From: Paraescarpia echinospica
Taxonomy: Eukaryota > Annelida > Polychaeta > Sabellida > Siboglinidae
Length of the DNA stretch: 64,000 nt
Assembly (NCBI GenBank): GCA_020002185.1
Contig: CM034533.1
Span: forward strand, 51,367,081 to 51,431,080
Direction of reading: 5' to 3'
In this document: positions 12,841-63,951 of the stretch, piece by piece
Numbering within the stretch: the first letter of the stretch is position 1
Layout of the letters: every line of letters begins with the position of its first letter
Notes under the pieces: model-generated
Told to the model about the DNA's origin: nothing
The model's database searches: none
The model's input: the letters and a program-made list of their open reading frames with translations, nothing else
Translations under genes and position numbers: made by a program

Positions 12841-14409
12841 AACGACCCCCCCTGATATGGGAAACGAAGACCAAGACGAGGACGATCTTGAACCATTAAG
12901 AGATGAGGTGAAATGGGCCATTAATAGTCTAAAAGATGGGAAAAGCCCTGGGTGCGACAACATACAGGCAGAAATGATAAAAGCAGCGGAAGAAGAAGGA
13001 ATAGACATATACCATGCATTGTGTAAGAAAACATGGAAGAGTGGAAAATGGCCAGACGATTGGAAGAAATCAATATACATCCCATTACCAAAGAAAGGAG
13101 ACCTACAGCTATGCTCCAACTACAGAACCATATCACTCATTAGCCACGCAAGCAAAATATTGCTGAAAATCATAATGAAAAAATGCAAGATAAAATGGAA
13201 ATGGAAGTGAGCAGTACACAGGCAGGCTTCAGAAAAAAAACAGAGGCACAAGGGACCACATATTCAATCTGAGAATGTTGATTAAGAAATTCAGAGGAGA
13301 TAAATAATGATCTAAGAATATGCTTCATCGACTATTCCAAGGCTTTCGACTGCATGAATCTTTAGATGATGTGGAGAACGTTCAGTGACATGAACTTCCA
13401 CCCAAAGATAATCGCCCTCTTGAAAACACTTTATAGCAACCAACAAGCAGTAGTCAGGCTTGAAAACACAACTACAGAAACTTTTACAGAGGGAAAAGGA
13501 GTAAGACAAGGGTGTATTGTATCACCATACCTATTCAATCTCTACACAGAAGGCATAATGAGAGATGTAGAATTAGATGACAGAAGTACAAGATACGATG
13601 AAGTGAATATTCATGGACATAGAATCAGAGACCTACGATACGCAGACGATACCGCACTCCTGTCCACTACAACAATCGGCCTAACAAACCTAATTATGTC
13701 TGTAAAAGAACACATTGAGAAAAAGGGCTTGTTACTTAATGTGAACAAAACAAAGATCATGGACACTGACAAATGCATTGACAAATCACAAATTGCAATA
13801 AACGGGGAGCAAGTTGAAAATGTGAACCACTACGAATACCTTGGGGCAAGACTACAAAGAGACGGCAAGACATCATCAGAGATCAGAAGAAGAATAGCCA
13901 TAACAACGCATAAACTAAATAATCTAAAAAATTTATGGAAAGGACAAAACATACCAACAAAGATTAGAATGTTAAAAACTTGCGTTTTCCCAACAGCTCT
14001 ATATGGGAGCGAAACGTGGACACTGAACAAAGAAGACATGAGAAGAAAACAAGCGTTTGAGATTAAATGTTACAGAAATGTCCTAAGAGTGCCATGGATA
14101 ACAAGAACAACCAATGCACAGATTCTTCAAAAATTAGACATAAAGAACTGTCAACTAGTGATTAGAATAAAAGGACTAAAACTGAGTTATTTTGGCCACA
14201 TCAAAAGACGTCATTCCTTAGAGAAAACAGTCCTAGAAGGCAAAGTGGAGGGAAAGAGAGGAAGAGGAAGACCAAGGAGAAGATGGGAGGAGGACATCAG
14301 TGACTGGTTGGAAGACGACATCGTGAGAGCAGGGAGACGAACGGCAGACAGAGCAGCGTATCGTGGGATCATCTGGGCAGCTACGTCTCGCAGAGATATG
14401 CTGAACTGA
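12809..14409 (+). pseudogene. LINE reverse transcriptase domain
   Basis: Blocks in order: GKSPGCDNIQAEMIK (12,940), IYIPLPKKGDLQLCSNYRTISL (13,075), FIDYSKAFDC (13,325), KGVRQGCIVSPYLFNLY (13,495), catalytic RYADDTALLS (13,636), then the thumb and a C-terminal region TALYGSETWTLNKED (13,990) and RGRGRPRRRWEEDI (14,262). The last segment, 13,366-14,409, is one open frame of 347 codons. Upstream there are frame changes at about 13,200 and stops near 13,275 and 13,363. YADD is intact, so this copy decayed recently compared with the RT remnant at 7 kb. Confidence 0.85.
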
Positions 14410-16680: not shown

Positions 16681-16901
16681 AGTAGTTATTATGTCGCTTT
16701 CTGGACGGGTCATGACCCGAGATCAAAGGAAAATCGTTTTTTTATATGTAGAATTGTTGTGTTTTTTATCAGTCAGGCCGCAGAAAGTGAGTCGAATGGA
16801 ATGTTACTTATAAAAAACAGCTTACTTATAAAAAAGGATGATTGACAGGACCACCTTTTGAGCGTGTGCTGACATCTAGTGAATAATTATTTAATTAATT
16901 A
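16681..16901 (+). repeat. Left terminal inverted repeat of element 3
   Basis: Matches 36,064-36,284 in inverted orientation with few differences (mainly around 16,737-16,755). Contains the palindrome CGGGTCATGACCCG and two TACTTATAAAAAA motifs, followed by GATTGACAGG. Confidence 0.93.
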
Positions 16902-17019: not shown

Positions 17020-17026
17020 TATATAG
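17020..17026 (+). promoter_or_regulatory. TATA box of the element 3 NADAR gene
   Basis: GGTTATATAGTGG lies ~50 nt before the NADAR ATG. An older copy of the same segment occurs at ~16,917. Element 4 has the identical GGTTATATAGTGG at the equivalent place. Confidence 0.5.
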
Positions 17027-17071: not shown

Positions 17072-17524
17072 ATGGAGCCTATACGTTTCGGAGGGTCAAT
17101 GTCGTACCTGTCGAATTTTTATCCATGTAGAATTGCGGCGTACGGTCGGGGTTTCAAAACCGTCGAGCACGCCTACCAGTTTAGAAAAGCGATGTTCAAC
17201 GAAGACGAAGCAAGCGCAGAGTACATCAAATCGGCGTGGTCGGCCTATATAGCGAAGCGACGAAGTTACCGGATCAAGAAAACGAGAACGGGTGCCGAAT
17301 GGGATGGCGTTAGAGTCGAGTGTATGAAGAGCCTTTTGATGAGTAAGTTCGGGGCGTCGAAAAAGTGCAAAGACGCCCTATTGGCTACCGGGGACCCCGA
17401 ATTGGTGGAGTGGGTGCTGTCGAAAGAAGCCTTTTGGGGTTGCGCCTATGGGTATAAAGAAGGTCAGAACAAGCTCGGCAAATTGTTGATGGAGGTGCGT
17501 CGTGAGTATAGAAGAAACGAATAA
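17072..17524 (+). CDS. NADAR (YbiA-like) domain protein, element 3
   Basis: 150 residues, intact, about the length of a stand-alone NADAR domain. Signature blocks: IRFGG...LSNFYPC (residues 4-19), the VEHAYQFRKAMF block (32-43), and the C-terminal LLATGDPELVEW...FWG...GQNKLGKLLMEVR. Family members act on ADP-ribose-linked N-glycosidic bonds. Bacterial examples include riboflavin-pathway N-glycosidases (YbiA) and enzymes that remove ADP-ribose from guanosine in nucleic acid. Here it is the first gene after the left terminus, under its own TATA box. A role in countering host ADP-ribosylation or NAD-linked defence is inference. Two orthologous copies occur in elements 4 and 5, so it belongs to the element family and is not a chance capture. 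Confidence 0.88.
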   Translation: MEPIRFGGSMSYLSNFYPCRIAAYGRGFKTVEHAYQFRKAMFNEDEASAEYIKSAWSAYIAKRRSYRIKKTRTGAEWDGVRVECMKSLLMSKFGASKKCKDALLATGDPELVEWVLSKEAFWGCAYGYKEGQNKLGKLLMEVRREYRRNE

Positions 17525-17560: not shown

Positions 17561-18186
17561 ATGGAAGGAAAGTGGAAGCATCGTTTTACGTGTATAGTGT
17601 CCGGCCCTACGGGGTGCGGTAAGACTACTTTCGTTGCTCGTCTGCTAAAGGTTGCCTCCTGTATGATTGAGCCGCCGCCGCAAAAATTATGTGGTGTTAC
17701 GGCCAGTGGCAAACCGCCTACGACTCTATGACATCCGGTGTAGAATTTGTAGACGGTTTGCTGCATCCGAAGCTTTTGGACGCCAAAACGAGGACGCTTC
17801 TAGTACTCGATGACCTTATGGCGGAGACCGATAGTAGGGTCACGACTTTGTTTACTAAAAAAAGTCATCACTGCAACGTGTCCGTCGTACAGCTTCTGCA
17901 GAATCTCTTTCCGAAAGGGAGAGAAAATCGCACAATCAGCCTAAACGCGCAGTATATGGTCCTCTTCAAGAGTCCACGGGACGCGTGGCAAGTAGGTCAC
18001 CTGGCGAAACAGATGTATCCGGGTAGAACCAACTACATGGTGGAGGCCTTCAAAGATGCCACGTCAGCAGCCTACGGTTACCTCCTGGTGGACCTGAAAC
18101 AGGAAACACCGGAAACCATGCGCCTGCGTACAGCCATTTTCCCCGACGATAGCGTTCAGTACGTCTTCGCGCCGACGAGAGTATAA
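17561..18186 (+). pseudogene. FtsK/HerA-type genome-packaging ATPase, element 3 (one frameshift)
   Basis: The motor that would pump DNA into the capsid. Starts ATG 17,561, 36 bp after the NADAR stop. Walker A GPTGCGKTT at about residues 15-23, Walker B TLLVLDDLM at ~17,790, then the sensor-like region with TKKSHHCN. A one-base change near 17,685 breaks the frame between the Walker A segment and the YGQWQ block. Downstream it is open to the stop at 18,184. Element 5 has an intact 217-residue copy. Confidence 0.88.
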
Positions 18187-18567: not shown

Positions 18568-19229
18568 TGCAGCACGCGAAGAAGATGGCGTTGGTAGACC
18601 CCCGGTTGGTGGAACGTCTACTCCCGTTGCTATCGCAACCGACCACGACCACGTCGCGTGTGATGAGTAGCCTGGACAACGACATGAAAGCCGTTCTCGA
18701 GCGTGTGGATTTATCCGAACGAGAAAAGGTAGCGGCGTACAATCAATTGCTTAGTCGTTACAACGCCATGGAGACGTCTCGCGCGCAGCAACCGATGCGA
18801 GTGTCCATAGTGAACGAGTCGCCGACGTCTGACCAATCGCCGACGTCCGACCAATCGCCGCCGCCGGACGATACGGAGAGCGAGATCGTGAAGAGCGTAC
18901 CGAAAATTCTGAAAAAAAAGGCCCGCTTCCTGATGGCGAAACTAAAAACCGACCCGCTGATTCGCTGGAGCGATCGAGGGGAGCTCGTGTACGACGGTGC
19001 GCCTATCGCCGGAAGCAACTTGGTAGTTCTAGTGAACGATCTCATGCGAAAGAGGAAGAAGACGCCCGCGCCGGTTGGCTGGGAAGCGTTTGGGGACCAT
19101 ATAAAGCGGTTGAACGTCCCTATGGAGCTCGTCGGTAATCCCCAGCGTCGAGCGTACATACAGCGCGCGCAGAAGCGAAAGGCCCGCACTCAATCTCTCG
19201 AACGTACGCCGTGGGCGGCCGCCTTTTAA
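18567..19229 (+). CDS. Conserved Polinton protein of unknown function, element 3
   Basis: 220 residues, intact. The ATG overlaps the previous stop (TGATG). The N-terminal block MALVDPRLVE and a coiled-coil-like LSEREKVAAYNQLLSRY are followed by a short SDQSPT tandem repeat. Then come the conserved IVKSVPKILKKKARFLMAKL, WSDRGELVYDGAPIAGSN and LNVPMELVGNP blocks. The same order occurs in elements 4 and 5. The C-terminal half also occurs inverted at 27,459-27,834. No enzyme motif is seen. Its position between the virion ATPase and integrase genes suggests a structural or packaging role, but that is inference. Confidence 0.75.
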   Translation: MQHAKKMALVDPRLVERLLPLLSQPTTTTSRVMSSLDNDMKAVLERVDLSEREKVAAYNQLLSRYNAMETSRAQQPMRVSIVNESPTSDQSPTSDQSPPPDDTESEIVKSVPKILKKKARFLMAKLKTDPLIRWSDRGELVYDGAPIAGSNLVVLVNDLMRKRKKTPAPVGWEAFGDHIKRLNVPMELVGNPQRRAYIQRAQKRKARTQSLERTPWAAAF

Positions 19230-19245
19230 AGAGTTCGCTCATAGG

Positions 19246-19422
19246 ATGCCCACTCGAAGACCAGTACTCGTCGTCGTCGTCGCCGCCGGCGTAATTGCGG
19301 CGGCTTTCGCCCTATACATCTTGTTTCTCGCCGTATCGTCGCAAGAGTCGTCGCCATGGCGGTGGTGTCCCGGCGGTCTCGTGGTGCGCAACGAAAGTGC
19401 CAACAACGGGAAGACCGCCTGA
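19246..19422 (+). CDS. Tiny single-pass membrane protein overlapping the integrase start, element 3
   Basis: 58 residues beginning MPTRRPVLVVVVAAG, with one hydrophobic segment (residues ~7-29) and a short C-terminal tail. It shares 19,356-19,422 with the integrase N-terminus in a different frame. A shorter relative sits at the same place in element 5 (MPSRRTITVVGFTIALIPLY) and a truncated one in element 4. The conserved position argues that it is real, although it is short. Confidence 0.5.
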   Translation: MPTRRPVLVVVVAAGVIAAAFALYILFLAVSSQESSPWRWCPGGLVVRNESANNGKTA

Positions 19423-20483
19423 AGCACGCCTAATTCGACCCGAAACGGGCTGGCAGTTACGGCGGCGTCGACGCGTTGCACCGGGCGACCGTAGTACCCA
19501 AGCCGATCGTCGAGCGGTGGCTATCGGAGCAGGACGCCTATACGCTTCACAAACCGATCAGACGCCGTTTCAAGCGACGTTGCGTTATCGTGGGCGGTCG
19601 AAACCAGCAGTGGCAGGCCGATCTCGTCGACGTGGCTAAACTGAAAAAACACAACGAAGGTATAGCGTTCCTATTGACGGTCATCAACGTCTTCTCGAAG
19701 CGGGCGTGGTGCGTCCCGTTGAAGACAAATCCGGTCCGGCGCTCGTTACGGCCTTCGAGGGCTTCCTGTCGTCGCTGCAACAACCGCCGAACGCCCTGCA
19801 GACCGACAAGGGGACGGAGTTTCTCAACAGGCCCCTTCAGAAGCTTTTGAAGGCGCGCGGCGTCCACCATTTCTGACGCACAATGAGGAGACCAAAGCGA
19901 GTGTCGTAGAGCGATTCAATCGTACGCTGAAGACACGCATGTGGAGGTACTTCACGAAGCATCAGACGCTGAGGTACGTGGAGCCGTTGCAGGACTTCGT
20001 GCGGTCGTACAACAACGCCTACCATCGAAGCATCTGTAGTACGCCGGCGAGCGTCAACGCAGCGAATCAGGAGAGCGTATGGCAGCGGCTGTACGGCGGC
20101 GGGTGTCGAAAAAACAAGCCGAAACTGCGAGAGGGAGACCGCGTACGCATAAGCAAGGCGAAGCGGCGCTTCAAGAAGGGGTACATGGCTAACTGGAGCG
20201 AAGAGCTCTTCACTTTAGTAGAATCGCATCCGTCCGACCCTCCCGTTTACCGAGTGATGGACGACGCCGGAACGATACTGGACGGCACCTTCTACGAACC
20301 GGAGCTACAAAAGGTAGTCGTCTCGAAGGATAAACTATATCGGGTGGAGGCGGTTCTACAGAGGCGTCGTCGACAACGACGCGGCGGTAAGGGTGTGAAG
20401 AGGTGCTCGTCAAATGGTCCTGGTATCCGGCTTCGTGTAACAGCTGGATCGACGCCAAGGCGCTCGTGGACTATAGGGGATGA
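19356..20483 (+). pseudogene. Retrovirus-like integrase with C-terminal chromodomain, element 3 (stop and three frameshifts)
   Basis: DDE integrase (rve fold) for insertion of the element with 6-bp target duplication. Catalytic blocks are QADLVD (first Asp, ~19,616), QTDKGTEF (second Asp, ~19,800) and SVVERFNR (Glu, ~19,900). The C-terminus has a chromodomain-like YRVEAVLQRRRR...LVKWSWYP...WIDAK. Lesions: TAA at ~19,431, frame breaks at ~19,735, ~19,872 and ~20,395. The integrase N-terminus overlaps the small membrane protein. The right-arm copy carries the same lesions. Confidence 0.85.
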
Positions 20484-20628
20484 CCTACGACTACCGCCTC
20501 TTCCGCCCTTGTCGATGCGACCGATGCTATCGACGACGACCGCAACGTCGGAGAACGCGCTCTATGATGTTTCTGCGGCCACGTCGCGCTAAAGGAAGGA
20601 CGCCGTAGCGTCGGACAGCAGTTGAGTT
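20484..20628. other. Spacer where elements 4 and 5 have a Cys-rich ORF
   Basis: The small Cys-rich protein found here in elements 4 and 5 is not recognisable; it appears lost or replaced in element 3. Confidence 0.4.
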
Positions 20629-21000
20629 ATGAACACCGTCGAGACGACAGCAGCAGCAGCAGCATCAGCGGCGGCTGATGCAGCCGAATTCCGTTGTCGA
20701 CTCAGGCGCGTTTGTCGAAGAACCCGCCGTCGACTCATGCGTCTCTGTGGATGCGCCCTATGCCGTCGACGACTCCTCCGTCACGACGACGAACGTTCCG
20801 TGGAGTCTCTGCGGCAACGAATGACCTCAAGCCGAGATCATCTTCCTGTGCCAGATCGTCGTCCTGTACACGGTTATCGTCGTCAGTATATAAAATCTAA
20901 CGCGCGGCCAGGCGACTCCAACCTGTGGACGGCGCTGCTGAGTAGCTGCCTCGGCTACCTACTACCGAGTCCGTCTATGAGACGCGATGGCGTCGTCTAA
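20629..21000 (+). pseudogene. Conserved membrane protein, element 3 (frame-broken)
   Basis: Intact relatives in elements 4 and 5 have one hydrophobic segment around AEIIFLCQIVVLYTVIVVSIY, then GDSNLWTALLSSCLGYLLPSPSM. In element 3 the hydrophobic part lies in another frame (about 20,830-20,900, with a stop at ~20,893), while the start and the GDSNLWTALLSSCLGYLLPS tail share one frame. The 3' end overlaps the penton ATG by 14 bp. This short membrane protein is widespread in Polintons; its function is unknown. Confidence 0.65.
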
Positions 21001-21864
21001 CTTTTACCTGACGCTGCCGAGCAACGCGTCTATGAAGGCGCACCCCGAAAACACGTTGACGGACTACACGACGAATCTGCCGCATCGCGTCGTCCTGTCG
21101 GGCCAGTGGGAATGCGGTCTGGTGACGCTACAGTACCCGCATACCTGGTACAACATGAGAGAGGATGACGCGTACTTCTTTCTGGCCAGTAAGGCGGGTG
21201 AGAAGGACCTGTTCGTCGCCTCGGACGGCACTCTGATTTATCGGCAGGGCGATATCCCTTACGGTTTTTACAACAGCACCTACGAGTTGGTGCACGCAAT
21301 CAACGCCGCCCTGATCAAACTGAACACCGATAAGGGCAAGGCCCGCTTGGAGTTCAGCGCCGTCTCTAACCGGGTGACGCTGCATCTTTCGCCGAGCGTC
21401 GAATTTATCATACCCCTCGGAGTTGCCTGGCGGCCGTACTAGGCTTCGAGTCGGGCACTATCGTGAGCCCCGATCCGCCGCCGCCGCCGAGACGTAACGT
21501 CGACGACGACCCGAGCGTCTACAACGACACCTCGCACGTCGCGTATAACTTCGAGCACGAGGGGGCCTACACGGTGGACATGAATCGGGGAGTCGACACC
21601 ATGTACGTGTACACGGACATCGTGGAGCCGCGCCTCGTCGGCGACGTGTACGCCCCGTTCCTCCGAACTGTGCCCGTCTACGGGACGAACGGGACCATCG
21701 TATCGAATGTTTTCGACCGCATTCAATACGCGCCGCTCCTGCGGCGTCAATTAGACTCGATCGAGATAGATATTAGAGACGACATCGGTCAGCCGATACC
21801 ATTCGAGCAAGGGAAAGTCGTGTCGACGTTTCACATCAGGCGCTGCAAGTCCAAACTGTTCTGA
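20987..21864 (+). pseudogene. Penton / minor capsid protein, element 3 (one frameshift)
   Basis: Single-jelly-roll vertex protein of the adenovirus-like capsid. Starts MASSNFYLTLPSNASM, continues through VVLSGQWECGLVTLQYPHTWYN and IPYGFYNSTYELVHAINAAL. A frame break near 21,430 precedes the C-terminal part with VYTDIVEPRLVGDVYAP, DSIEIDIRDDIGQPIPFEQG and the terminal CKSKLF. Homologous full-length frames exist in element 5. The stop TGA overlaps the next ATG. Confidence 0.85.
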
Positions 21865-22290
21865 TGGTGAGAACCACTGGGCGCAACGCATACGAGGATT
21901 ACTACACTCGACAGGTCGGCGGCAACCTGCCGGTGTTCGTCGGCGGCCGCGTGCAGCGGGGACACGGCCTGAGCAATCACTTCGGCAGCCTGTTTCGAAG
22001 CACCATGCCGCTCATCAAGAGAGGGGCCGTGGCGCTGGGCAAGCGCTGTCGATACGGGCGTGCGCTTGGCGCGGGACGTCGTCGCCGGCGGCAATTTGAA
22101 ATAGTCGGTAAAGCGACGCGCGAAGGAGGCGGGCGCCGACCTTCTTGACGGGCTGTTGAATTCGCCGCCGCCGCAGCCGCCAAAAAAGCGACGACGACGC
22201 ATAAAACCGCCTGGCAAGCCGGCGACGACCAGTAAGAAGAGGCGCCGTCGAACGGAACAGAGAGCGAGCGACGACGTATTTCCCGCGTAA
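21864..22290 (+). pseudogene. pVI-like basic virion protein, element 3 (frameshift and stop)
   Basis: Begins MVRTTGRNAYEDYYTRQVGG. It has a Gly-rich segment and the conserved GSLFRSTMPLIKRGAVALGK amphipathic region, then a basic Lys/Arg tail. One base is missing near 22,047 relative to the right-arm copy, and both copies have TAG after GGNLK. Resembles adenovirus pVI/core-type proteins in position (just before the MCP) and composition. That assignment is by analogy. Confidence 0.65.
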
Positions 22291-22297
22291 TAATAAT

Positions 22298-22645
22298 ATG
22301 GCGTTCGTGCATCGACAGCTGTGCGAGGGCCTAAAGAGCGAACTGGACCTGTTCGACATGCCGCTGACGCAGACGAGCATCGAGAGCGGTCAGTGGATCG
22401 ACCACCAGCCGCTGACGGCCCTCGACGCGGGCGGCCCTATCGAGTTTACCCGCAACTGCGACTCGTGGACGTACAACGACAAGAGACTGCAGAGCGGCTT
22501 ATCTAACGTGTGCGGACAATATTGCGTCACCTACCTGCTCATACGATGCCGCGGTATGCCGCTAAACGGCTTCCAGTGCCTGTTCGGTCCCGATAGGGTG
22601 GCCAACGACTGTCTCGTATTCGACTGGCTAAAGCCGCATCATTGA
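22298..22645 (+). pseudogene. Major capsid/protease deletion fusion, element 3 left arm
   Basis: An open 115-codon frame whose first ~50 codons match the MCP N-terminus (LDLFDMPLTQTSIESGQWID...DAGGPIEF) and whose last ~65 match the protease C-terminus (SWTYNDKRLQS...NVCGQYCVTYLL...WLKPH). About 1.6 kb of MCP and protease sequence present in elements 4 and 5 has been removed and the remaining parts joined in frame. Neither a capsid nor an active protease is encoded: the catalytic His and Asp of the protease are lost and only the Cys region remains. The same junction is in the right arm. Confidence 0.9.
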
Positions 22646-23034
22646 ACATTTTAAAATAGTTAGAAAAGCAGTTATTATTATTATATTCGATTGGCTAAAG
22701 CCGCATTGAACTTTCAAAATAGTTAGTAAAGCAGTTATTATTATAGTAGTAGACGACGACGACCGAGTATCCGAACCGACTTTGTCGGACCCGCTGGGCG
22801 CGGGCTCCTCGCCGTACTGGGCAGGCAAGACCGAAGTAGTGAGGTTATAGTAGTAAATAAAAAACACGATGTAAACTGTACCGCGTGTTGTTTGTTCACT
22901 CATTTTTTATTACATCATACATACATACATACCCTACCCGTAGGTAGGTAGGGTTCCTACCCCTAGGTCCCTACCCCTATAGGTCCCTACCCCTAGGGGT
23001 AGAGGGTGGTCCCTTTAGGGATGGAGGGGGGTGG
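22646..23034. other. AT-rich duplicated segment and C-rich/G-rich tract between convergent gene ends
   Basis: A ~60-bp segment (GGCTAAAGCCGCAT...GCAGTTATTATTAT) occurs twice (22,627-22,740). AATAAA at 22,855 could serve the plus-strand genes. From 22,918 to 23,025 there is a (CATA)n run and repeated CCCTACCCCTAGG. The minus strand is thus GGGTAGGGGTAGGG-like, with G-quadruplex potential. Element 4 has the same type of tract at 48,735-48,811. Confidence 0.6.
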
Positions 23035-23655
23035 CTACTTTACGAGTATCGGCGCCGTGGTGACGCCGTCGTGGATCATGCGACGTTTTGCGTAAAAGTA
23101 GCACAACGCCGCGCGCTCCTGAATGTACGTCAGCACGGACGATTCCTTCACTTGGAAGCCGCGGTTGCAGCCGCTGGGGCTCCGTCGTCAGCGCAGCACG
23201 CCGAGGAAGACGTCCTTGTTGACGTCGTTCTGACGCTTGCTCAGCCCCTTCGTGCTGTACTTGTCACCGCCGTCGCGGAAACAGTAGTACGTCTTACTGC
23301 AGAGCGCGACGTTTCCGCGACCGGACCATTCCTCTTTGAAGCGGCCCGGCGTTCGCTTGTCGTACCTGCGCCGTCTCGCGCAACATTCGTCGGGCGCGTC
23401 CCTCGCTCGGCCGGCGAGCCGGCACCGTACATAAGCCTCCGCGTGCGCGTCGCAGTGTTCCGACGGGAACCACTCGCCGCGGTGCCGAAAGTAGTGTTCT
23501 CGCTTAGCCGTCGCCACGAGCTCGTCGATGTCGCGTCCCGCGAGGCTCAAATACGCCGAATCGGTGTCCATCGCGCAGTACTGGAACAGGGGGCGCGGAA
23601 TATAGGCGGCGATGAAATCGTAGCAAAATTCCGCCAATACTCGTAAAGTAGCCAC
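23035..23655 (-). pseudogene. PolB C-terminal fragment, element 3
   Basis: Palm motif C (AMDTDSAYLSLAG, ~23,560) followed by DKRTPGRFKEEW, CSKTYYCFRD, YSTKGLSKRQND and, after a frame break near 23,188, the terminal TYIQERAALCYFYAKRR block ending TAG at 23,035. It is cut off upstream at ~23,637, where the inverted copy begins. Motif B and the rest of the palm are missing, so PolB is physically split. Confidence 0.88.
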
Positions 23656-24040
23656 CCCCCTCCATCCCTAAAGGGACCACCCTCTACCCCTAGGGGTAGG
23701 GACCTATAGGGGTAGGGACCTAGGGGTAGGAACCCTACCTACCTACGGGTAGGGTATGTATGTATGTATGATGTAATAAAAAATGAGTGAACAAACAACA
23801 CGCGGTACAGTTTACATCGTGTTTTTTATTTACTACTATAACCTCACTACTTCGGTCTTGCCTGCCCAGTACGGCGAGGAGCCCGCGCCCAGCGGGTCCG
23901 ACAAAGTCGGTTCGGATACTCGGTCGTCGTCGTCTACTACTATAATAATAACTGCTTTACTAACTATTTTAAAAGTTCAATGCGGCTTTAGCCAGTCGAA
24001 TATAATAATAATAACTGCTTTACTAACTATTTTAAAATGT

Positions 24041-24388: not shown

Positions 24389-24395
24389 ATTATTA

Positions 24396-35299: not shown

Positions 35300-36063
35300 C
35301 TCTAACAATAAACATATATTTATCACCGTTTCCTTTCTTATGTTCTTGCATTCCAACTAATGCGCACTTCACAAGTGACAGCCATTACCACCGCCAAGCG
35401 CCTACACAATAATTCAGCGTTATAAAATGAATCACTGCCAAGCGCCTAATCCAGCGTCATACACTGCACCGCGCAGACAACTATATTGTGCCGCACTTTG
35501 CCCCCACCGCGCAGCCAAAGAATCACTGCCAAGCGCCTACACAATAATAATAATATATATAAATGCACCACGCAGTGCCTAACACAGCAACTTTATCATT
35601 ATAAATTGTACCGCACTTCGCCCGCCTAAGCCAGCTATAAAAGTATTTTCAATGCCGTCATACGATATCCCATTTGGCCGTGAGTCGAGACGAGTAGGCC
35701 AACTGATAGCCTCGCTGACCTTCCAGCGCCGCCAGCCGCCAGCTGATACAAGCTAAGTGCAGACGTACCCAACAGCCAACTAAATGCTGGCGTACTTCAC
35801 TAGATATGACGCTTTCCTGCCTCACACATATAACCACAACATATAACCATATCACCGTAAAACTAATTAGTACTATTTTTACTTATTGCTAGTGCTGCCC
35901 TCCAATGAATACACTACTCACTAGTTGCTAATTAATGACTAATTAATTAATTAACTAATTATTCACTACTAATTAATTGCTAATTACTATTTTTACTTAT
36001 TGCTAGTGCTGCCCTCCAGTGAATACACTACTCACTAGTTGCTAATTAATGATTAATTAATTA
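35300..36063. repeat. Right subterminal repeats of element 3
   Basis: At 35,395-35,560 a CACTGCCAAGCGCCTA unit recurs three times. At 35,860-36,063 a ~122-bp AT-rich unit (TACTTATTGCTAGTGCTGCC, CCTCCAGTGAATACACTACT, TAATTAATTAA) occurs twice, each with a CTCF-core-like GCTGCCCTCCAGTG. No gene is supported. Confidence 0.7.
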
Positions 36064-36284
36064 ATTAATTAACTAATTATTCACTAGATGTCAGCACACG
36101 CTCAAAAGGTGGTCCTGTCAATCATCCTTTTTTTTATAAGTAAGCTGTTTTTTATAAGTAACATTCCATTCGACTCACTTTCTGCGGCCTGACTGATAAA
36201 AAACACAAAAATTATACTTATAAAAAACCGATTTTCCTTTGATCTCGGGTCATGACCCGTCCAGAAAGCGACATAATAACTACT
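36064..36284 (-). repeat. Right terminal inverted repeat of element 3
   Basis: Inverted partner of 16,681-16,901, ending AATAACTACT just before the TATGTG target duplication. It carries one more TTATAAAAAA copy than the left end. Confidence 0.93.
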
Positions 36285-41690: not shown

Positions 41691-41913
41691 TTGCCGCCTT
41701 GCCGCCGCCTGTTCGTGTACGTACATTAGAGCTGACCTCTAGTGGCTATACTTCCTATGCTAACGTAGAAGGTACCGCCTCTAGTGGTTATGCTATGATA
41801 ACGTAGACGGTAGCGCCTCTAGTGCAAGAATGAGTAATCAGTCACCTATGCGTAAGGAGGTTATATAGTGGTTATACATGAGGTGTACTCAGTAGTGTCT
41901 CAAGATCAGCGGT
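41691..41913 (+). promoter_or_regulatory. NADAR upstream region with CCTCTAGTGG motifs and TATA box, element 4
   Basis: Three CTCF-core-like motifs (CCTCTAGTGG at 41,736; CGCCTCTAGTGG at 41,776; GCGCCTCTAGTG at 41,813) are followed by TATATAG at 41,872-41,878, about 36-42 nt before the ATG. Confidence 0.55.
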
Positions 41914-42366
41914 ATGGAGCCTATACGTTTCGGTGGTTCGGCGTCGTTTCTGTCGAATTTTTATCCGTGTCGAGTCACTGCGTTCGGTCGGAGTTTCAAA
42001 TCCGTCGAGCACGCTTATCAGTTTAGAAAAGCAATGTTTAACGAAGACGAAGAAAACGCGGAGTACATCAAACAGTCGTGGTCGACCTATATAGTGAAGC
42101 GCCGAAGTTACGGAATCAAGAAAAAGAGAACGAGAGCCGAATGGGATGCCACTAGGGTCGGGTGTATGAAGAGCCTGTTGATGAGCAAGTTCCAAGGGAC
42201 ACAAAAGTTAAAAGACGCTCTGTTGGCTACCGGGGATGCTGAATTGGTGGAGTGGGTACCGTCAAAAGAAGCCTTCTGGGGTAGCGCCCACGTGGACAAA
42301 GAAAGTCAAAATATGCTCAGAAAATTATTGATGGAGGTGCGCAATGAATGTAGAAGAAACGAATAA
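41914..42366 (+). CDS. NADAR (YbiA-like) domain protein, element 4
   Basis: 150 residues, intact, with IRFGG...LSNFYPC, VEHAYQFRKAMF, LLATGDAELVEW...FWG and the LLMEVR end. About 75-80% identical by eye to the element 3 protein. W at the region QNMLRKLLMEV replaces the usual QNxLGK pattern only at one Gly (LRK instead of LGK). First gene of the element. Probable role as for element 3. Confidence 0.87.
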   Translation: MEPIRFGGSASFLSNFYPCRVTAFGRSFKSVEHAYQFRKAMFNEDEENAEYIKQSWSTYIVKRRSYGIKKKRTRAEWDATRVGCMKSLLMSKFQGTQKLKDALLATGDAELVEWVPSKEAFWGSAHVDKESQNMLRKLLMEVRNECRRNE

Positions 42367-42403
42367 AAAGCCATCGCTCGTTTCCTGCGCGCCAGTCGTC
42401 GAT

Positions 42404-43025
42404 ATGTATACGTCGTTGAAGCACCCGTTTACGTGCATCGTGGCTGGCCCTACGGGGTGCGGTAAGACTACTTTTGTCACTCGTCTACTACAGGTCGCTT
42501 CTTCTACGATTGAGCCGCATCCGGAGAAAATTCTGTGGTGTTATGGCCAGTGGCAATCCGCCTACGCCTCTATGTCAACCGATATAGAATTCGTAGACAG
42601 CCTACCGGATCCAAAGATTTTAGATGCCAAAACGAGGACGCTTCAAGTACTCGATGACCTTATGGAGGAAACCGATAGCCGGGTCACGACCTTGTTCACT
42701 AAAAAAGTCATCACTGCAACACGTCCGTCGTACAGCTTCTGCAGAATATTTTCCAAAAGGGAAAGAAAACCGCACAATCAGCTTGAATGCGCAACATATG
42801 GTGCTATTCAAGAGCCCCCGGGACGCCGGACAAGTAGGTCACCTGGCGAAACATATGTATCCTGGTAGAGTCAAATACATGATGGAAGCTTTCAAAGATG
42901 CCACGTCAGCAACCTACGGTTATCTTTTAGTGGATCTGAAACAGGAAACAGCGGAAAATATGCGCTTTCGGACGTCTATTTTCCACGACGATCGCCTTCA
43001 GTACGTTTACGTAAGGAGAGTATAA
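42404..43025 (+). pseudogene. Packaging ATPase, element 4 (one frameshift)
   Basis: Start chosen at ATG 42,404 (MYTSLKHPFTC), which matches the start in element 5. An upstream in-frame ATG at 42,344 overlaps the NADAR end. Walker A GPTGCGKTT, Walker B TLQVLDDLM. One A is missing in the A-run at ~42,702 (FTKK to SHHCN region), shifting the frame. The C-terminal part continues in the other frame to 43,025. Confidence 0.87.
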
Positions 43026-56086: not shown

Positions 56087-56290
56087 AGTAGTATACAGGC
56101 GTGTTTCGACCTCAAACGCCTACTTATAAAAAATTATTTAATGACCACTAAACGTTTTCGGGCACCTACTTATAAAAAAAAGATGAAAGGCTTTTTTTGA
56201 CACTAATTAGTTTCGGGAACCTACTTATAAAAAACGTGATTGATGACCCTTGTAATTTGATACTAATTGGATGATTGATTACCCCCTAAG
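56087..56290 (+). repeat. Left terminal region of element 5 with TACTTATAAAAAA units
   Basis: Three units with CCTACTTATAAAAAA, each followed by variable A/T-rich sequence, the last with GATTGATGACCC as at the other elements' ends. Confidence 0.75.
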
Positions 56291-56436
56291 TACACTAGAG
56301 ATGCCACCTAGCGGTGAGTGCAGAGAGCCTTTTAGTTCGTCCCCTAGCGATCAACGCCGTACCTAGAGCGTGCTGACGTAAGCAATAATGCGTTTGTCGC
56401 GCGAATATATAACCACGATAAAACCACTGTATAAAC

Positions 56437-56680: not shown

Positions 56681-56751
56681 TTTTTAGTTCCTCTATCTAG
56701 CGGTGGTGACAGTATATAAGCGGTGGCGGTAGCGGGTGATCGGTAGTCGGT

Positions 56752-57204
56752 ATGATGTCGTCACCTATAAGGTTTGGTGGATCGCGGTCGTTCTTGTCGA
56801 ATATGTATTTGTGTCGAGTGTCGGCGTTCGGTCGGGGCTTTCGATCCGTCGAGCACGCCTATCAGTATAGGAAAATATTCTACGACGACGTGGAATGTGC
56901 CGAAGAAATCAAAAGTTCGCGAACCTCTCATGCAGCGAAACGACGCGGTTACGACATTCGAAAAAAGAGAATGGGAACCAAATGGACCGATGTTAGGGTG
57001 AGATGTATGAAGACGTTGTTGAGGAGGAAGTTTGACGGATCGAGCGATTTGAAGGCTGCACTGTTGGCGACCGGGGACGCCGAATTGGTGGAATGGGTAG
57101 CGAGTAGGGAGGGTTTCTGGGGTAGCGGAATCGCGGGCGAAGTGGGGAAGAACACGCTCGGTAAACTGTTGATGAAGTTGCGCGATGCTTATAAAGACGC
57201 GTAA
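56752..57204 (+). CDS. NADAR (YbiA-like) domain protein, element 5
   Basis: 150 residues, intact (MMSSPIRFGG; the second Met at 56,755 is an alternative start). Blocks SFLSNMYLCRVSAFGRGF, VEHAYQYRKIF, LLATGDAELVEWVASREGFWG and LGKLLMKLR. About half identical to the element 3 and 4 proteins by eye, yet all family blocks are retained, which suggests selection for function before endogenisation. Confidence 0.87.
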   Translation: MMSSPIRFGGSRSFLSNMYLCRVSAFGRGFRSVEHAYQYRKIFYDDVECAEEIKSSRTSHAAKRRGYDIRKKRMGTKWTDVRVRCMKTLLRRKFDGSSDLKAALLATGDAELVEWVASREGFWGSGIAGEVGKNTLGKLLMKLRDAYKDA

Positions 57205-57232: not shown

Positions 57233-57886
57233 ATGAACGGACCGTCGTTGAAGCATCCTTTTACGTGTAAAGTAGCCGGTCATACGGGGTGCGGTAAGAC
57301 GACGTTCGTCGAGCGTTTGATACGTCACGACGCTATGATCGATCCGCCGCTGGAGAAAATCCTGTTGTGCTACGGACAGTGGCAGAGCGGCTACGCGTCT
57401 ATATCTTCGAAAATAGAGTTCGTAGACGGCCTGCCGGATCCGAAACGTTTAGACGGTAAAGCGAGAACGCTTCTAGTACTCGACGACCTCATGGAGGAGA
57501 CCGATAGCCGGGTGACGGTACTATTTACAAAAAAAAGTCATCATTGTAATACGTCGGTCGTACAACTGCGACAGAACATGTTTCCGAAAGGGAAAGGAAA
57601 CCGTACAATCTGCCTGAACGCTCAATACATAGTGCTATTCAAGAGCCCCCGAGATGCCGGCCAAGTAGGTCACCTAGCGAAACAGATGTACCCGGGAAAG
57701 GTCAACTACATGATAGAGGCTTTCAAAGACGCGACGTCGTCGGCGTACGGCTATCTATTCGTGGATCTGAAACAGGAAACGGAAGAGGACATGCGCCTGC
57801 GTACGTGCATATTTCCGGACGATCGCCTTCAGTACGTGTACGTACGGAAGGGTGGTGGCGGTAGTGGTGGTGTCGGCGGCCTATAA
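57233..57886 (+). CDS. FtsK/HerA-type genome-packaging ATPase, element 5
   Basis: 217 residues, intact. Walker A GHTGCGKTT at residues ~17-25 (His replaces Pro of the other copies), Walker B TLLVLDDLM with EE nearby, then TKKSHHCNTSVVQLRQNMF and LFKSPRDAGQVGHLAKQMYP, typical of the adenovirus/Polinton-type packaging motor. The C-terminus has a Gly-rich tail (KGGGGSGGVGG). 29 bp downstream of NADAR. Confidence 0.92.
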   Translation: MNGPSLKHPFTCKVAGHTGCGKTTFVERLIRHDAMIDPPLEKILLCYGQWQSGYASISSKIEFVDGLPDPKRLDGKARTLLVLDDLMEETDSRVTVLFTKKSHHCNTSVVQLRQNMFPKGKGNRTICLNAQYIVLFKSPRDAGQVGHLAKQMYPGKVNYMIEAFKDATSSAYGYLFVDLKQETEEDMRLRTCIFPDDRLQYVYVRKGGGGSGGVGGL

Positions 57887-57924: not shown

Positions 57925-58326
57925 ATGACGGGGCGCGCGGTGGCAGCGAAGAGACGACGGAAGGTGGCGGCACCGACGAATCGAGTGAAGAGACACATTG
58001 TCGCCCTGCAGCTGTTGGAGAGGCATAGGCGGAACATCGATCTGCGAAAAGCCGCGCTCGCCCACGCGGACGCCGGTCTCATTTGTAGTCTGTGCGTTTG
58101 CGCATACAACATTCTGAAAGGGAACGTGAAGTTGTCGCCGAAACAGAAACGCGTGTTGACGAAATACAGGAATCACCTGCGTAAACTCGTCGACAAACAC
58201 GTTGCGCTTAAGCAGAAGCGTGTCATCTTGCAAAAGGGTGCGGTAGGTTTTCTGACGGCCCGGCTAGCGCCGTTAGCGAGCACCGTTCTCCTTCCGCTGC
58301 TCAGACAGGTGATCGGCAGCGGGTGA
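57925..58326 (+). CDS. Small basic/hydrophobic conserved virion protein, element 5
   Basis: 133 residues, intact. Basic N-terminus (AAKRRRKVAAPTNRVKRHI), CSLCVCAYNILKGNVKLSPKQ block with three Cys, and a hydrophobic Gly/Leu C-terminus (GAVGFLTARLAPLASTVLL). A basic DNA-binding half joined to a membrane-active-looking tail suggests a core or entry-associated virion protein; this is inference. Confidence 0.72.
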   Translation: MTGRAVAAKRRRKVAAPTNRVKRHIVALQLLERHRRNIDLRKAALAHADAGLICSLCVCAYNILKGNVKLSPKQKRVLTKYRNHLRKLVDKHVALKQKRVILQKGAVGFLTARLAPLASTVLLPLLRQVIGSG

Positions 58327-59197: not shown

Positions 59198-60343
59198 ATG
59201 GTGTCCGGGTGGAGTCGTCGTCGTCGTCCAAAACGAAAGTCTCGACAGCAACGAAACGACGTCGACGACGACGACGACCTGAATAACGTCTACTTCGATC
59301 CGAAACGGGTGGGAAGTTACGGAGGCGTCGACGCGTTGCACCGGGCGTCGAAGCTCCGACGTCCGGCCGTCGAGAGGTGGCTAGCGTCGCAGGACGCCTA
59401 TACCCTACACAAACCGGTTAAACGACATTTCAAACGACGTCGCGTCATCGTGGGCGGTCGAAACCAGCAGTGGCAAGCCGATCTGGTCGACTTGACTAGA
59501 CTGAAAACGCACAACGACGGTATAACATACCTATTGACGGTGATCGATGTGTTTTCGAAGTGGGCGTGGTGCGTTCCGTTGAAGAGTAAGTCCGGCCCGT
59601 CGCTCGTCGTGGCCTTCGAGCGCCTGCTGAGCGACGACGACGAGACGCCGAACTCGCTGCAGACCGATAAGGGGAGCGAGTTTTTGAACCGACCCCTGCA
59701 AACGTTCCTAAAGAGTCGCGGCGTTCATCATTTCGTGACGCATAACGAGGAGACTAAAGCGAGCGTCGTGGAACGGTTTAATCGAACTTTGAAGACGCGT
59801 ATGTGGCGCTATTTTACGAAACACGAAACGCTGCGCTACGTAGAGGCGTTACCGGATTTCGTGCGATCGTAGAACAACGCCTACCACCGAAGCATCGGTA
59901 GGACGCCGGCGAGTGTTGACGCGACGAATCAGGAGGCCGTATGGCAACGACTGTACGGGGGTGGCGACGTCGGTTGCGGTCAACGGCGAAAACCGAAACT
60001 ACGCGTCGGAGATCGCGTACGTATCAGCAAGACGAGGGGTCAATTCAAAAAAGGATACCTGGCTACCTGGAGCGAGGAGCTCTTCACCGTCATAGAGGTG
60101 CACCCGTCCGATCCGCCCGTTTATCGCCTGAAGGACGACGCCGGGACGCCGGTAGAGGGCGCCTTATACGAACCGGAACTACAACGCGTAGTCGTTCCGA
60201 AGGACAAACTGTATCGCGTGGAGGCGATTCTACAGCGTCGTCGGCGTCGCGGCGGCGGTGGTTCGGAGGCGCTCGTAAAATGGAGCGGATAACCGGCCTC
60301 ATTCAACAGCTGGATCGACGCCGAGTCGCTCGTGGACCTATAA
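59198..60343 (+). pseudogene. Retrovirus-like integrase with chromodomain, element 5 (two in-frame stops)
   Basis: One frame throughout with TAG at 59,870 and TAA at 60,290. Basic N-terminus, FDPKRVGSYGGVDALHRA, catalytic QADLVD (~59,470), QTDKGSEF (~59,662) and SVVERFNR (~59,763), DNA-binding-side VGDRVRISK and chromodomain YRVEAILQRRRR...ALVKWSG. DDE residues are intact, so this is the least damaged integrase. The first stop replaces a Tyr codon, the second a Tyr in the chromodomain. Confidence 0.88.
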
Positions 60344-60662: not shown

Positions 60663-60870
60663 GGCCGAAATCGTATTCCTCTGTCAGGTCGTCGTCCTGT
60701 ACTTCGTCATCGCCGTTAGTATATACAATCTGACGAAAGGTCAAGGTGACTCCAACCTGTGGACGGCGCTGTTGAGCAGCTGTCTCGGTTACCTGCTCCC
60801 GAGTCCGTCTATGAGTGTTGGTGGCGGCGGCGGCGAACGTCGACAACAACACGATGGCGGTCTCGTCTGA
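60502..60870 (+). CDS. Conserved membrane protein, element 5
   Basis: 122 residues, intact. An acidic/Thr-rich N-terminus with a short EHADS(V/I)D repeat, then hydrophobic AEIVFLCQVVVLYFVIAVSIY and GDSNLWTALLSSCLGYLLPSPS. The C-terminus overlaps the penton start in another frame. Widespread in Polintons, function unknown. Confidence 0.75.
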   Translation: MSDDDETTSSGDRRTNAGAEHADSVDEHADSIDATTTTTAEPVPWRICGNECPKAEIVFLCQVVVLYFVIAVSIYNLTKGQGDSNLWTALLSSCLGYLLPSPSMSVGGGGGERRQQHDGGLV

Positions 60871-61726
60871 CTTTTACCTGACGCTGCCGAGCAACGCGAC
60901 TATGAAGCGTCACCACGAAAATACGTTGACGCGCTTCGTCACGACGTTGCCGCGACGTTTCGACCTGTCGGGGGAGTGGGATTGCGGAGCGGTGTCGGTA
61001 CAGTATCCGCACATGTGGTACAACGTGAGAAACAAGGACGCCTACTTCTACCTGACTTGCGCGACGGGTGATCCGGGTGTTTACACGCATGTAGACGAAC
61101 GCGGCACGACCGTGCTGATATATCGTCAGACCACGATTCCTCACGGTTTCTACAACAACCTTTATACGTTGTTGAACAGGATCAACGAGGCACTATATAA
61201 ATTATCCACCAAGAAGGTCAAGGCCATGCTAGAATACTGCGCCGTCTCTAACCGATTTACGCTACGTATGTCGCCGGGTGTCGAATTTATCATACCTCAT
61301 ACGAGCCGTCTGAAGTACTTGCTATGTTTCCATAGCAACACGATCCTGAGTCCGTCCTTGTATGGTTCCGCGCCGGCGGTCGTCATCGACACCATGCCCG
61401 TCGCGTACACGTACGAGTACGAAGGTCGCGATACGGTGAATATGTCGGCGGGCATCGAGAGCCTGTACGTGTACACAGATCTCGTGGAACCGCGCGTCGT
61501 CGGTGAAGTGTACGCGCCACTCCTTCGAAACATCGCCGTCCGCGATGAGAACGGTGACATTATTTCGGAAACGTTCGACCGTGTGCAATACGTGAAGCTG
61601 CTGCGGAATCAATTCGATGAGGTCGAAGTCGATATAAGAGACGATCACGGTCAACCGATACCATTCGAGCAGGGGAAGGTGGTGACGAAGCTTCACTTCA
61701 GACACTGTAAATCGAAATTGTTTTAA
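60854..61726 (+). CDS. Penton / minor capsid protein, element 5
   Basis: 290 residues, intact from ATG 60,854 (MAVSSDFYLTLPSNATM). This start matches the other copies; an in-frame Met at 60,815 lies in the overlap with the membrane protein gene. Blocks FDLSGEWDCGAVSVQYPHM, YVYTDLVEPRVVGEVYAP, VEVDIRDDHGQPIPFEQGK and CKSKLF. Forms the five-fold vertices of an adenovirus-like capsid. Confidence 0.88.
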   Translation: MAVSSDFYLTLPSNATMKRHHENTLTRFVTTLPRRFDLSGEWDCGAVSVQYPHMWYNVRNKDAYFYLTCATGDPGVYTHVDERGTTVLIYRQTTIPHGFYNNLYTLLNRINEALYKLSTKKVKAMLEYCAVSNRFTLRMSPGVEFIIPHTSRLKYLLCFHSNTILSPSLYGSAPAVVIDTMPVAYTYEYEGRDTVNMSAGIESLYVYTDLVEPRVVGEVYAPLLRNIAVRDENGDIISETFDRVQYVKLLRNQFDEVEVDIRDDHGQPIPFEQGKVVTKLHFRHCKSKLF

Positions 61727-62182: not shown

Positions 62183-63487
62183 GTGACGTTCGTGAACGGC
62201 GCAAAGTGCGAGGGCGTGAAGGCCGAACTGGACCTGTTCAGCGGGCCGGTGACGCAGACGAGCGTCGAGAGCAGTCAGTGGACCGTCTACCTGCCTCTGA
62301 CGACTCTCGACGCCGGCGGCCCTATCGAGTTCCTCATCCCGGGTTCGGGCGAAGACTATACGGACCTGGCGAGCCTTCAAGTGTACGTGCGCTTCAAAGT
62401 GATTCAGGGGGACGGTACCGATATGGCGGCCGGCGCCAACGTGGCGCCGGTCAACAATTTCCTGCATTCGATGTTCAGTCAAATCGACGTGTCGCTGAAC
62501 AACACCCTCGTGACGCCGTCGACCAATACGAACGCGTACCGGGCCTACCTCGAGACGCTGCTGAGTTACGTTAGCGACGCGAAACGTTCGCATCTCACGG
62601 GTTCGTTGTGGTACAAAGGCAACGCCGGACGGATGGACACGCTCGGGAACAACAACGCCGGGTTCGAGGCACGGCGCGTCATGACGGCCGATAGCAACGA
62701 GGTGGAGATGATGGGACGCGTGCACGTCGACGCGTTTATGCTAAACAGACACATACCGAACGGCGTCGACACGAAAGTACGCATGGTGCGCACGAAGGAC
62801 ACTTTCGCGCTCATGGGCGCGCAAACCGTACCGGGGTGTCGCGTCGTGCTGCAGGCGATTCGACTGCACGTGAGAAAAGTGAAGTTGAACCCGGACGTCC
62901 AGATGGGACATATCAAAGCGTGGACGTTGGGAACGGCTAAGTTTCCGATGCGCCGCGTCGACTGCAAATCGTTCTCGATCACGGCGGGTACGCTATCGCA
63001 CACGCACGAGAACTTGTACATGGGTGCGAATCCGAGACGCCTCTTCCTGATGATGATCAATCACGTCGCCTACAACGGAGACTACACAAGAAATCCGTTC
63101 GACGCGCGTCACAACGACATAAACTTCCTCACGCTCGTCGTCGACGGACGTCAGTTGCCGAGCAAGCCGCTGCAGCCGGACTTCCCGCACAACCGGTACG
63201 TGCGGAGCTACATAAACCTCTTCGAGGCCAGCGGAAAGGCGTACGAGGACGACGAGGGGAACGACGTAGAGCGTACGGACTTCGGCGCCGGCTACACCAT
63301 CTTCGGTTTCGACCTGACCCCCGACTGTTGCGACGGGGTCCATTTCAACGTCGTGCGTCAGGGGACCGTGGGCACCGAAATGCACTTCGGGACGCTGCTA
63401 CCGCTTCCGGAGAACGTCGTCGTGTACGCGGAATTCGAGACGGTGATGGAGATCGACAGGAACCGGAATGTCGTGTACGACTGGTAA
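62183..63487 (+). CDS. Major capsid protein (double jelly roll), element 5, start codon altered
   Basis: 434 codons, open throughout. Elements 3 and 4 start ATGGCGTTCGTG; here the aligned position reads GTGACGTTCGTG, so the ATG is lost. Blocks PGSGEDYTDLASL, NNFLHSMFSQIDVSLNNT, VEMMGRVHVDAFM, SYINLFEASGKAYEDDEGN, YTIFGFDLTPDCCDG and VYAEFETVMEIDRNRNVVYD. Hexon-like trimeric subunit of the shell. Frame preservation suggests recent loss of the start. Confidence 0.9.
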   Translation: MTFVNGAKCEGVKAELDLFSGPVTQTSVESSQWTVYLPLTTLDAGGPIEFLIPGSGEDYTDLASLQVYVRFKVIQGDGTDMAAGANVAPVNNFLHSMFSQIDVSLNNTLVTPSTNTNAYRAYLETLLSYVSDAKRSHLTGSLWYKGNAGRMDTLGNNNAGFEARRVMTADSNEVEMMGRVHVDAFMLNRHIPNGVDTKVRMVRTKDTFALMGAQTVPGCRVVLQAIRLHVRKVKLNPDVQMGHIKAWTLGTAKFPMRRVDCKSFSITAGTLSHTHENLYMGANPRRLFLMMINHVAYNGDYTRNPFDARHNDINFLTLVVDGRQLPSKPLQPDFPHNRYVRSYINLFEASGKAYEDDEGNDVERTDFGAGYTIFGFDLTPDCCDGVHFNVVRQGTVGTEMHFGTLLPLPENVVVYAEFETVMEIDRNRNVVYDW

Positions 63488-63489
63488 CT

Positions 63490-63951
63490 ATGGATACGTT
63501 TCAACTGATGCGTCGCCTGGAACACGATACGTACGCTAAACGTATCGTCGTCGGCGTCGTGCCTAAAGACGCGCTACTTACCGCCGCCACCACCACCACC
63601 ACCGTTTACCCGACGGCCTTCGTGTGCAACACCGACGACGGCGGCAAACCGGGACAGCACTGGGTGGCCGTCTACGTGGATGCCGACCGGCGAGGCGAGT
63701 ACTTCGATTCGTACGGTCTGCCGCCGCTGCACGCCGACTTCCACGCGTTCCTGCACCGTCACTGTGGGGACGCGTTGACGTACAACGACAAGCGGCTGCA
63801 GAGCGTCATCTCTAACGTGTGCGGACAATATTGCGTCGCCTACCTTCTCCTCCGATGTCGCGGTATGCCGTTGACGACGTTCCAGAGCCTATTCGGCACC
63901 AATCGGGTGACCAATGACTGTCTCGTATACGATTTGTTAAAACCGCATTAA
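63490..63951 (+). CDS. Adenain-like cysteine protease, element 5
   Basis: 153 residues, intact. Virion maturation protease. Catalytic His in GQHWVAVYVD (residue ~58), Asp in EYFDSYGLPPLH (~75), Gln in KRLQS and nucleophile Cys in NVCGQYCVAYLL (~120). Starts three bases after the MCP stop. AATAAA at ~63,980 may serve the plus-strand gene block. Confidence 0.9.
   Translation: MDTFQLMRRLEHDTYAKRIVVGVVPKDALLTAATTTTTVYPTAFVCNTDDGGKPGQHWVAVYVDADRRGEYFDSYGLPPLHADFHAFLHRHCGDALTYNDKRLQSVISNVCGQYCVAYLLLRCRGMPLTTFQSLFGTNRVTNDCLVYDLLKPH

Follow-up and report, generated by a model that had tools for sequence, protein, structure and literature searches.

The window analyzed here, a 64,000-nt stretch of Paraescarpia echinospica (CM034533.1, 51,367,081-51,431,080, forward strand), contains three mobile elements (E1, E2, and E3), each of which carries a gene for a NADAR-family protein; coordinates below are those of the window. 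NADAR appears to be a core gene of one clade of Polinton/Maverick elements (adintovirus type), probably acquired once and maintained by purifying selection. The gene itself, its position, promoter motifs, copy number, single clade, selection, active-site residues, and basic charge are supported by the sequence. As a whole, NADAR is best explained, with confidence a little short of even, as a captured and selected guanine-(ADP-ribosyl) hydrolase that would protect the DNA or RNA of the element. The NADAR genes, their TATA boxes, and the terminal inverted repeats were located as follows.

17072..17524, + strand: NADAR gene of E1 (150 residues; Pfam PF08719, 1.4e-25, 90.9 bits)
41914..42366, + strand: NADAR gene of E2 (150 residues; PF08719, 1.5e-22, 81 bits)
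56752..57204, + strand: NADAR gene of E3 (150 residues; PF08719, 5e-24, 85.8 bits)
17020..17025, + strand: TATA box of the E1 NADAR gene (TATATA, 52 bp before the ATG)
41862..41867, + strand: TATA box of the E2 NADAR gene (TATATA, 52 bp before the ATG)
56713..56718, + strand: TATA box of the E3 NADAR gene (TATATA, 39 bp before the ATG; at -39 in 20/20 related copies)
16681..16901, + strand: left terminal inverted repeat of E1 (97% identical to 36062-36284, inverted)
36062..36284, - strand: right terminal inverted repeat of E1 (microsatellite alongside; TATGTG on both sides)
56087..56430, + strand: left terminal inverted repeat of E3 (96.8% over 344 bp to inverted L081:9491-9832)

All three proteins exceeded the cut-off of the Pfam NADAR profile (35.1 bits). 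Against PDB sequences, the E1 protein matched 2B3W (YbiA; 9.4e-13) and 8BAU (3.5e-8), and its AlphaFold2 (AF2) model had a pLDDT of 92.3 and a pTM of 0.88. By these matches, the three open reading frames (ORFs) are genuine NADAR-family genes, and a 150-residue NADAR gene in all three elements, as claimed in an earlier sequence-only reading of this DNA, was confirmed. The divergence to about 50% between elements given in the same reading was overstated: identities were 77% (E1-E2), 57% (E1-E3), and 61% (E2-E3; local, 59% in another alignment).

In the genome searched (1.08 Gb in 3111 contigs, 14 of which were 55-97 Mb), NADAR genes were of three lineages: g1 (the E1 type; query P0001, the E1 protein), g3 (the E3 type; query P0003, the E3 protein), and a third type, X. 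Searches with P0001 and P0003 each gave at least 150 places, with identities of 82-100 and 88-100%, respectively. Since the two queries were 57% identical to each other, different loci are expected, amounting to at least 300 NADAR places (assembly duplicates are possible). Judged by these searches, the gene is present in hundreds of genome copies, many of which are still intact. The order NADAR-ATPase-short ORF was found in 56/56 distinct g1 and g3 loci, comprising 50 from the P0001 and P0003 searches (E1 and E3 included) and seven from a Pfam search, with L015 and L049 being the same locus. In the reverse approach, starting from the ATPase, NADAR (83-85% identical to P0003) was located directly upstream in all six loci; these had been picked by hand among at least 150 ATPase places, were absent from the NADAR lists, and included none of the X type.

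The NADAR gene of E1 (19.6 kb between the terminal repeats) started 391 bp from the outer end and 170 bp past the terminal repeat. In E3 (17.6 kb), whose right terminal repeat lay beyond the window at window-equivalent positions 73310-73651, it started 665 bp from the outer end, and no + strand ORF of 60 or more residues with an ATG was found between the terminal repeat and NADAR. A location directly after the left terminus, as previously proposed, was thus confirmed for E1 and E3, in which NADAR was the first + strand gene inside the repeat, and not confirmed for E2, in which no paired terminal repeat was found because the element extends into 1 kb of N (48812-49811). Nor did the broader proposal that NADAR is the first gene across the element family survive in lineage X, in which other ORFs were located upstream: in L243, NADAR was preceded by an ORF that has a similar leader and resembles a zinc finger over one stretch (Pfam 0.004, below the cut-off), and the "first gene" position is therefore not general.

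Each NADAR gene was correctly described as having its own TATA box (at -52, -52, and -39 in E1, E2, and E3, respectively). TATAWA occurred within 150 bp upstream of NADAR in 27 of the 29 g1 loci and in all 20 g3 loci, compared with 4.0 and 0.6, respectively, in shuffles of the same upstream stretches; the copies counted are related and not independent, and L057 was omitted because its upstream part was missing. An initiator-like TCRGT was found 27-31 bp after the start of TATA in 23/29 g1 and 20/20 g3 loci.

In lineage X, NADAR formed the C-terminal portion of a longer ORF (up to ~290 residues). The N-terminal extension (~145 residues) had two repeats containing FSDSDVDEP (L006:1048-1908 and other X loci). 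ORFs of the X type (NADAR, the zinc-finger-like ORF, and another) began with or followed a similar leader (L010:642-1286 and 1282-1908; L243:1600-2337 and 3048-3908), a pattern that would result from duplication of a terminal promoter/leader cassette and its placement before different genes.

By HMMER alignment to 8BAU, which we take to be a NADAR of the PnNADAR type, and manual counting, E32, K39, W77, E113, and W122 of P0001 were matched to E43, K50, W89, E125, and W133 of PnNADAR. The latter five are described as active-site residues of PnNADAR (PMC11543638). Loss of active-site residues was looked for in 79 genome copies, and the residues were mostly kept: E32 in 75, K39 in 79, W77 in 79, E113 in 75, and W122 in 77 (two gaps). 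Among 80 NADARs from outside the elements, E32 was found in 80/80 and K39 in 78/80, and the catalytic and ligand-contact residues were mostly among the best-conserved positions of NADAR. E113 of the element NADAR corresponded to the Glu of the YbiA type, whereas Asp is found in DarT1-linked NADARs and BC4488, and His in phage NADARs.

The net charge of ten element NADARs ranged between +5 and +13, and the medians were +1.5 for 40 prokaryotic NADARs and +2 for 40 viral-contig NADARs. Comparison of five element NADARs, which are related to each other, with the 80 outside NADARs gave a p value of 0.0004. The ATPase and the penton-like, hexon-like, and protease-like ORFs of E3 were less charged. 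The basic charge of the element NADARs favors a nucleic-acid substrate.

Neutral evolution between elements was tested and not found: the ratios of nonsynonymous to synonymous substitution rates (dN/dS) of NADAR were 0.35 (E1-E2), 0.38 (E1-E3), and 0.35 (E2-E3), with upper 95% bounds of 0.58, 0.59, and 0.53, respectively. The corresponding values of the ATPase were 0.23, 0.19, and 0.14. Comparisons of the window elements included 11 NADAR pairs and, for the ATPase, five sequences; the dN/dS and conservation sets excluded L024 as well as L015, which is the same locus as L049. Between lineages, dN/dS of NADAR was 0.18-0.42 overall, with a median of 0.18 for g1 versus X, for which dS was near saturation (75 of 828 pairs saturated). 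By these ratios, NADAR is under purifying selection in the lineage, weaker than that on the ATPase and with decay after insertion.

In a tree of 134 proteins, ten element NADARs and seven database proteins (64-89% identity to the respective query) formed one clade with an SH-aLRT support of 99 and a stem of 0.92. The tree sampled every second of 160 viral and prokaryotic loci (40 + 40), had few columns, and contained no animal host NADARs; in this sample, several independent captures, which had been raised as a possibility, were not borne out. The close database relatives were three element-type proteins for P0001 and four for the X query. A wider set of 37 rows gave prokaryotic and metagenomic nearest neighbors, with low resolution. 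The identity of P0001 to any listed non-element NADAR was at most 42%, and one database protein (P0047) was 44% identical to the X query and up to 49% identical to some genome copies. Scans with a NADAR alignment gave 409 relatives in viral contigs (32-42% identity for the best 80) and 140 in prokaryotes (29-39% for the best 80), and phage NADARs (395 records) were all below 60% identity (37-42% for the ten listed). No close donor of the element NADAR was found among the viral-contig, prokaryotic, and phage relatives, and viral contigs scanned with single NADAR and ATPase queries, or with an ATPase alignment, gave no relative. A genome search with P0047 for host NADARs outside elements gave at least 150 places, many of which were at already known element coordinates; since these places were not each checked, a host NADAR gene could be hidden among them. 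The hexon-like protein of E3 had 1743 relatives (E <= 0.001) in the same database that yielded seven element-type NADARs, and NADAR is therefore probably restricted to a minority of Polintons, although short proteins are more easily missed in such searches.

All NADARs assayed in the published work consulted (PMC11543638 among it) reversed guanine ADP-ribosylation of DNA or RNA, and guanine-N2 ADP-ribosylation activity is described in six edible clams, together with CARP-1 (PMC11209040). We infer the transcription, enzymatic activity, nucleic-acid substrate, host partner, and protective role of the element NADAR as follows. Transcription of the gene probably starts at its own TATA/initiator promoter, which lies at the left end and precedes the packaging ATPase, and the protein is most probably an active YbiA-type guanine-(ADP-ribosyl) hydrolase. 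It would strip ADP-ribose from element DNA or RNA, and the incoming or replicating genome would thereby be shielded against a CARP-1/pierisin-like guanine ADP-ribosyltransferase of the host or against some similar modification. On this reading, the host may mark nucleic acid chemically, and the elements would remove that mark. If the host has one, a transferase of the clam CARP-1 type would be a chemically fitting opponent. The sequence-only reading had put forward reversal of host defense or protection of the element's own DNA; this would agree with what is published on the biochemistry of NADARs, with their basic charge in the elements, and with the occurrence of guanine-N2 ADP-ribosyltransferase activity in clams. 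A further-reaching and rather speculative proposal is that one lineage of animal Polinton viruses took up NADAR to counter the ADP-ribosylation of guanine in DNA by the host, as an anti-restriction enzyme that stands alone; if true, DarTG1 versus phage counter-defense would have a counterpart in animals, and invertebrate CARP/pierisin-type enzymes would be anti-transposon or antiviral weapons.

Several observations weigh against a maintained hydrolase acting on nucleic acid. E32 and E113 were each lost in 4 of the 79 copies. At two lesser contact sites, E1 has Glu at position 119 (Asp in 78/80 outside NADARs), and P0001 has Gly at the site matched to D86 of PnNADAR. A charge of +8 was reached by six of the 80 outside NADARs, with maxima of +14 (prokaryotic) and +12 (viral-contig), and the integrase part and short ORF of E3 were also basic. 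Stop codons were present in NADAR of 11/30 P0001-type and 2/20 P0003-type loci examined. NADAR evolved faster than the adjoining ATPase in the same pairs (0.35-0.38 vs 0.14-0.23), disjoint nearest NADAR pairs had pN/pS values of 0.39-0.58 (post-insertion decay), and within-group dN/dS values are biased downward because the loci were chosen by protein similarity. In lineage X, the ATPase was located within 1.5 kb of NADAR in 6/23 loci and absent within this distance in 17/23. No Scabin-like (pierisin-type) family was found in the genome by a search that was uninformative because the positive control also gave no match, with introns defeating the search.

The target may instead be soluble or protein-bound ADP-ribose derivatives from host NAD-based immunity (TIR/PARP-type signals) and not nucleic acid, which we regard as possible, if doubtful. 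PMC9503650 proposes that many viral NADARs act on soluble derivatives and that those of animal RNA viruses act on macromolecular adducts, and N-glycosidic bonds are cleaved by YbiA in small molecules (PMC11543638). However, the basic composition of the element NADARs points to a nucleic-acid partner, and Pfam scans, which covered part of the element ORFs, gave no SLOG, Macro, or Nudix companion. It is unlikely that NADAR deals with ADP-ribosylation arising from integration or replication of the element itself (a host PARP response), with no anti-defense role: the elements encode an rve integrase and NADAR adjoins the packaging gene, in keeping with such a function, but Polintons in general seem to do without NADAR, given the excess of capsid-type relatives (1743) over element-type NADARs (seven), a comparison weakened by the difficulty of finding short proteins.

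That NADAR is a neutral passenger, or serves in metabolic repair as a riboflavin-intermediate N-glycosidase, is still a little less likely. E. coli YbiA has riboflavin-intermediate N-glycosidase activity (PMC11543638), E113 is the catalytic Glu of the YbiA type, and selection was weaker than that on the ATPase; nevertheless, dN/dS of NADAR was well below 1 between lineages, the gene was present in all 56 g1/g3 loci and the six ATPase loci, and it is not obvious why a mobile element would retain flavin repair. We give very little weight to a structural or nucleic-acid-binding protein with dispensable catalysis, which would account for the basic charge and for the copies without E32 (4/79) or E113 (4/79), since most of the catalytic and ligand-contact residues were among the best-conserved positions. 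Independent host captures, or ordinary host genes beside transposons, are hardly credible: animals possess NADARs (PMC11125620) and the tree was without those of animal hosts, but the E1 and E3 genes lie inside terminal repeats, the gene order was the same in 56/56 distinct g1/g3 loci, and the element NADARs formed one clade (support 99).

The other genes of the elements were as follows.

17689..18186, + strand: packaging ATPase ORF of E1 (partial frame; locus L031)
42344..42868, + strand: packaging ATPase ORF of E2, first frame (frame shifts near an A-rich stretch)
57233..57886, + strand: packaging ATPase of E3 (217 residues; Pox_A32, 1.6e-5)
57925..58326, + strand: short, very basic ORF of E3 (133 residues, net charge +26)
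59198..59872, + strand: rve integrase part of E3 (PF00665, 2.4e-14)
60854..61726, + strand: penton-like ORF of E3 (no Pfam family match)
62183..63487, + strand: hexon-like ORF of E3 (family with named animal members; no Pfam match)
63490..63951, + strand: protease-like ORF of E3 (weak match to cysteine protease S273R, E 0.03; no Pfam match)

Terminal inverted repeats are a criterion for Polintons/Mavericks, the target site duplication of which is 6 bp; E1 was inserted in a TATG/TGTG microsatellite with TATGTG at both ends, so that its target site duplication was ambiguous. The E3 ATPase matched Pox_A32 with a whole-protein score of 24.9 (cut-off 22.8), no single stretch passing alone, and also matched NB-ARC, below the NB-ARC cut-off. 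The names penton-like, hexon-like, and protease-like are our assumption from position and resemblance. Comparison of the hexon-like ORF with PDB sequences gave nothing better than E 0.12, and the named proteins among the best 120 of its 1743 relatives were from Lamellibrachia, Ridgeia, Lytechinus, and Phallusia ("F54H12.2-like"). The evidence for PolB in E3 was weak (DNA_pol_B_2, 0.005, below the cut-off, in one of four E3 pieces); palm-like PolB motifs were spotted by eye in frames of L081 to the right of the window, and three PolB matches elsewhere in the genome were above the cut-off. On the basis of the A32/FtsK-type ATPase, rve integrase, capsid-type ORFs, and visible PolB motifs, the NADAR-bearing elements were labeled as Polinton/Maverick, provisionally of the adintovirus type. 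The strict adintovirus definition, as given in PMC11071296, includes PolB with an OTU-like N-terminus, a Hexon recognizable by BLASTp, and an integrase with a C-terminal chromodomain. Pfam scans of the element ORFs reported no chromodomain of the integrase.

Other observations were made in the ATPase gene and the window. The best ATPase match broke near residue 100-110, beside a Lys-Lys stretch, in 21 of the 56 g1/g3 loci (e.g. at ~42700 in the window), for which an indel hotspot, an assembly error, and a programmed frameshift are candidates. E1 contained a 4.2-kb inverted duplication (99%) of its own left-half genes (18854-23054 and 23632-27834), the arms of which were separated by 577 bp. 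A 1.99-kb unit was present in three tandem copies (49812-55846; 98-99% alike where compared) directly after the N run into which E2 extends. At the left edge of the window, 743-1204 (- strand) matched DNA_pol_B_2 (0.0088, below the cut-off) and is perhaps a fragment of another Polinton. A reverse transcriptase ORF (RVT_1, 5.1e-17) was found at 13366-14409. The window gave no match to Rfam, and COX1 was not matched anywhere in the assembly.

What NADARs do physiologically in the various eukaryotes, including animals, is described as unclear in PMC11125620. With NADAR retained under selection in hundreds of copies, a mobile DNA element provides a concrete and testable candidate eraser. It also suggests that ADP-ribosylation of guanine plays a part in some conflict, in animals among which clams reportedly possess the activity that produces this mark (PMC11209040). 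NADAR would also be an additional accessory gene for Polintons.

Among known systems, the hydrolases of the YbiA type (E. coli YbiA, 2B3W, and P. nicotianae NADAR) belong to the same family by Pfam and PDB sequence matches, and share the catalytic Glu and Lys pattern with the E1-E3 proteins, which are compact (~150 residues) without an N-terminal extension. The element NADARs differed from them in low identity (at most 42% for P0001), the long stem (0.92), the more basic charge, and being encoded by a mobile element. DarT1-NADAR (DarTG1) is of the same enzyme family, and the element NADAR is predicted to share its chemistry, in which ADP-ribose is taken off guanine, whereas the element protein has Glu, not Asp, at the catalytic position, and E1-E3 were without the DNA-binding N-terminal extension. 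A toxin-antitoxin system of the DarT1 type was rejected, since the neighbors of NADAR were the ATPase and short ORF, and no ADP-ribosyltransferase was recognized beside it in Pfam scans of the ORFs given; the element NADAR would at most function like DarT1-NADAR, and is not a member of that system. With Polintons/Mavericks and adintoviruses, the elements share a length of 15-20 kb, terminal inverted repeats, an rve integrase, an FtsK/A32-like ATPase, and capsid-type genes, while NADAR is not among the conserved Polinton genes listed in PMC4028283. A limited literature search, with subscription papers mostly outside its scope, found no prior report of NADAR in a Polinton or adintovirus, and the word Polinton was absent from the main texts of PMC9503650 and PMC12477816. 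NADARs have been described from phages, RNA viruses, and large DNA viruses of eukaryotes (PMC9503650), and also from retrotransposons, namely Gypsy elements of Ectocarpus and Tx1 LINEs of oyster (PMC12477816). In these cases, the NADAR domain was likewise recruited by a virus or mobile element, whereas here it is a stand-alone Polinton gene with its own promoter motifs at the terminus.
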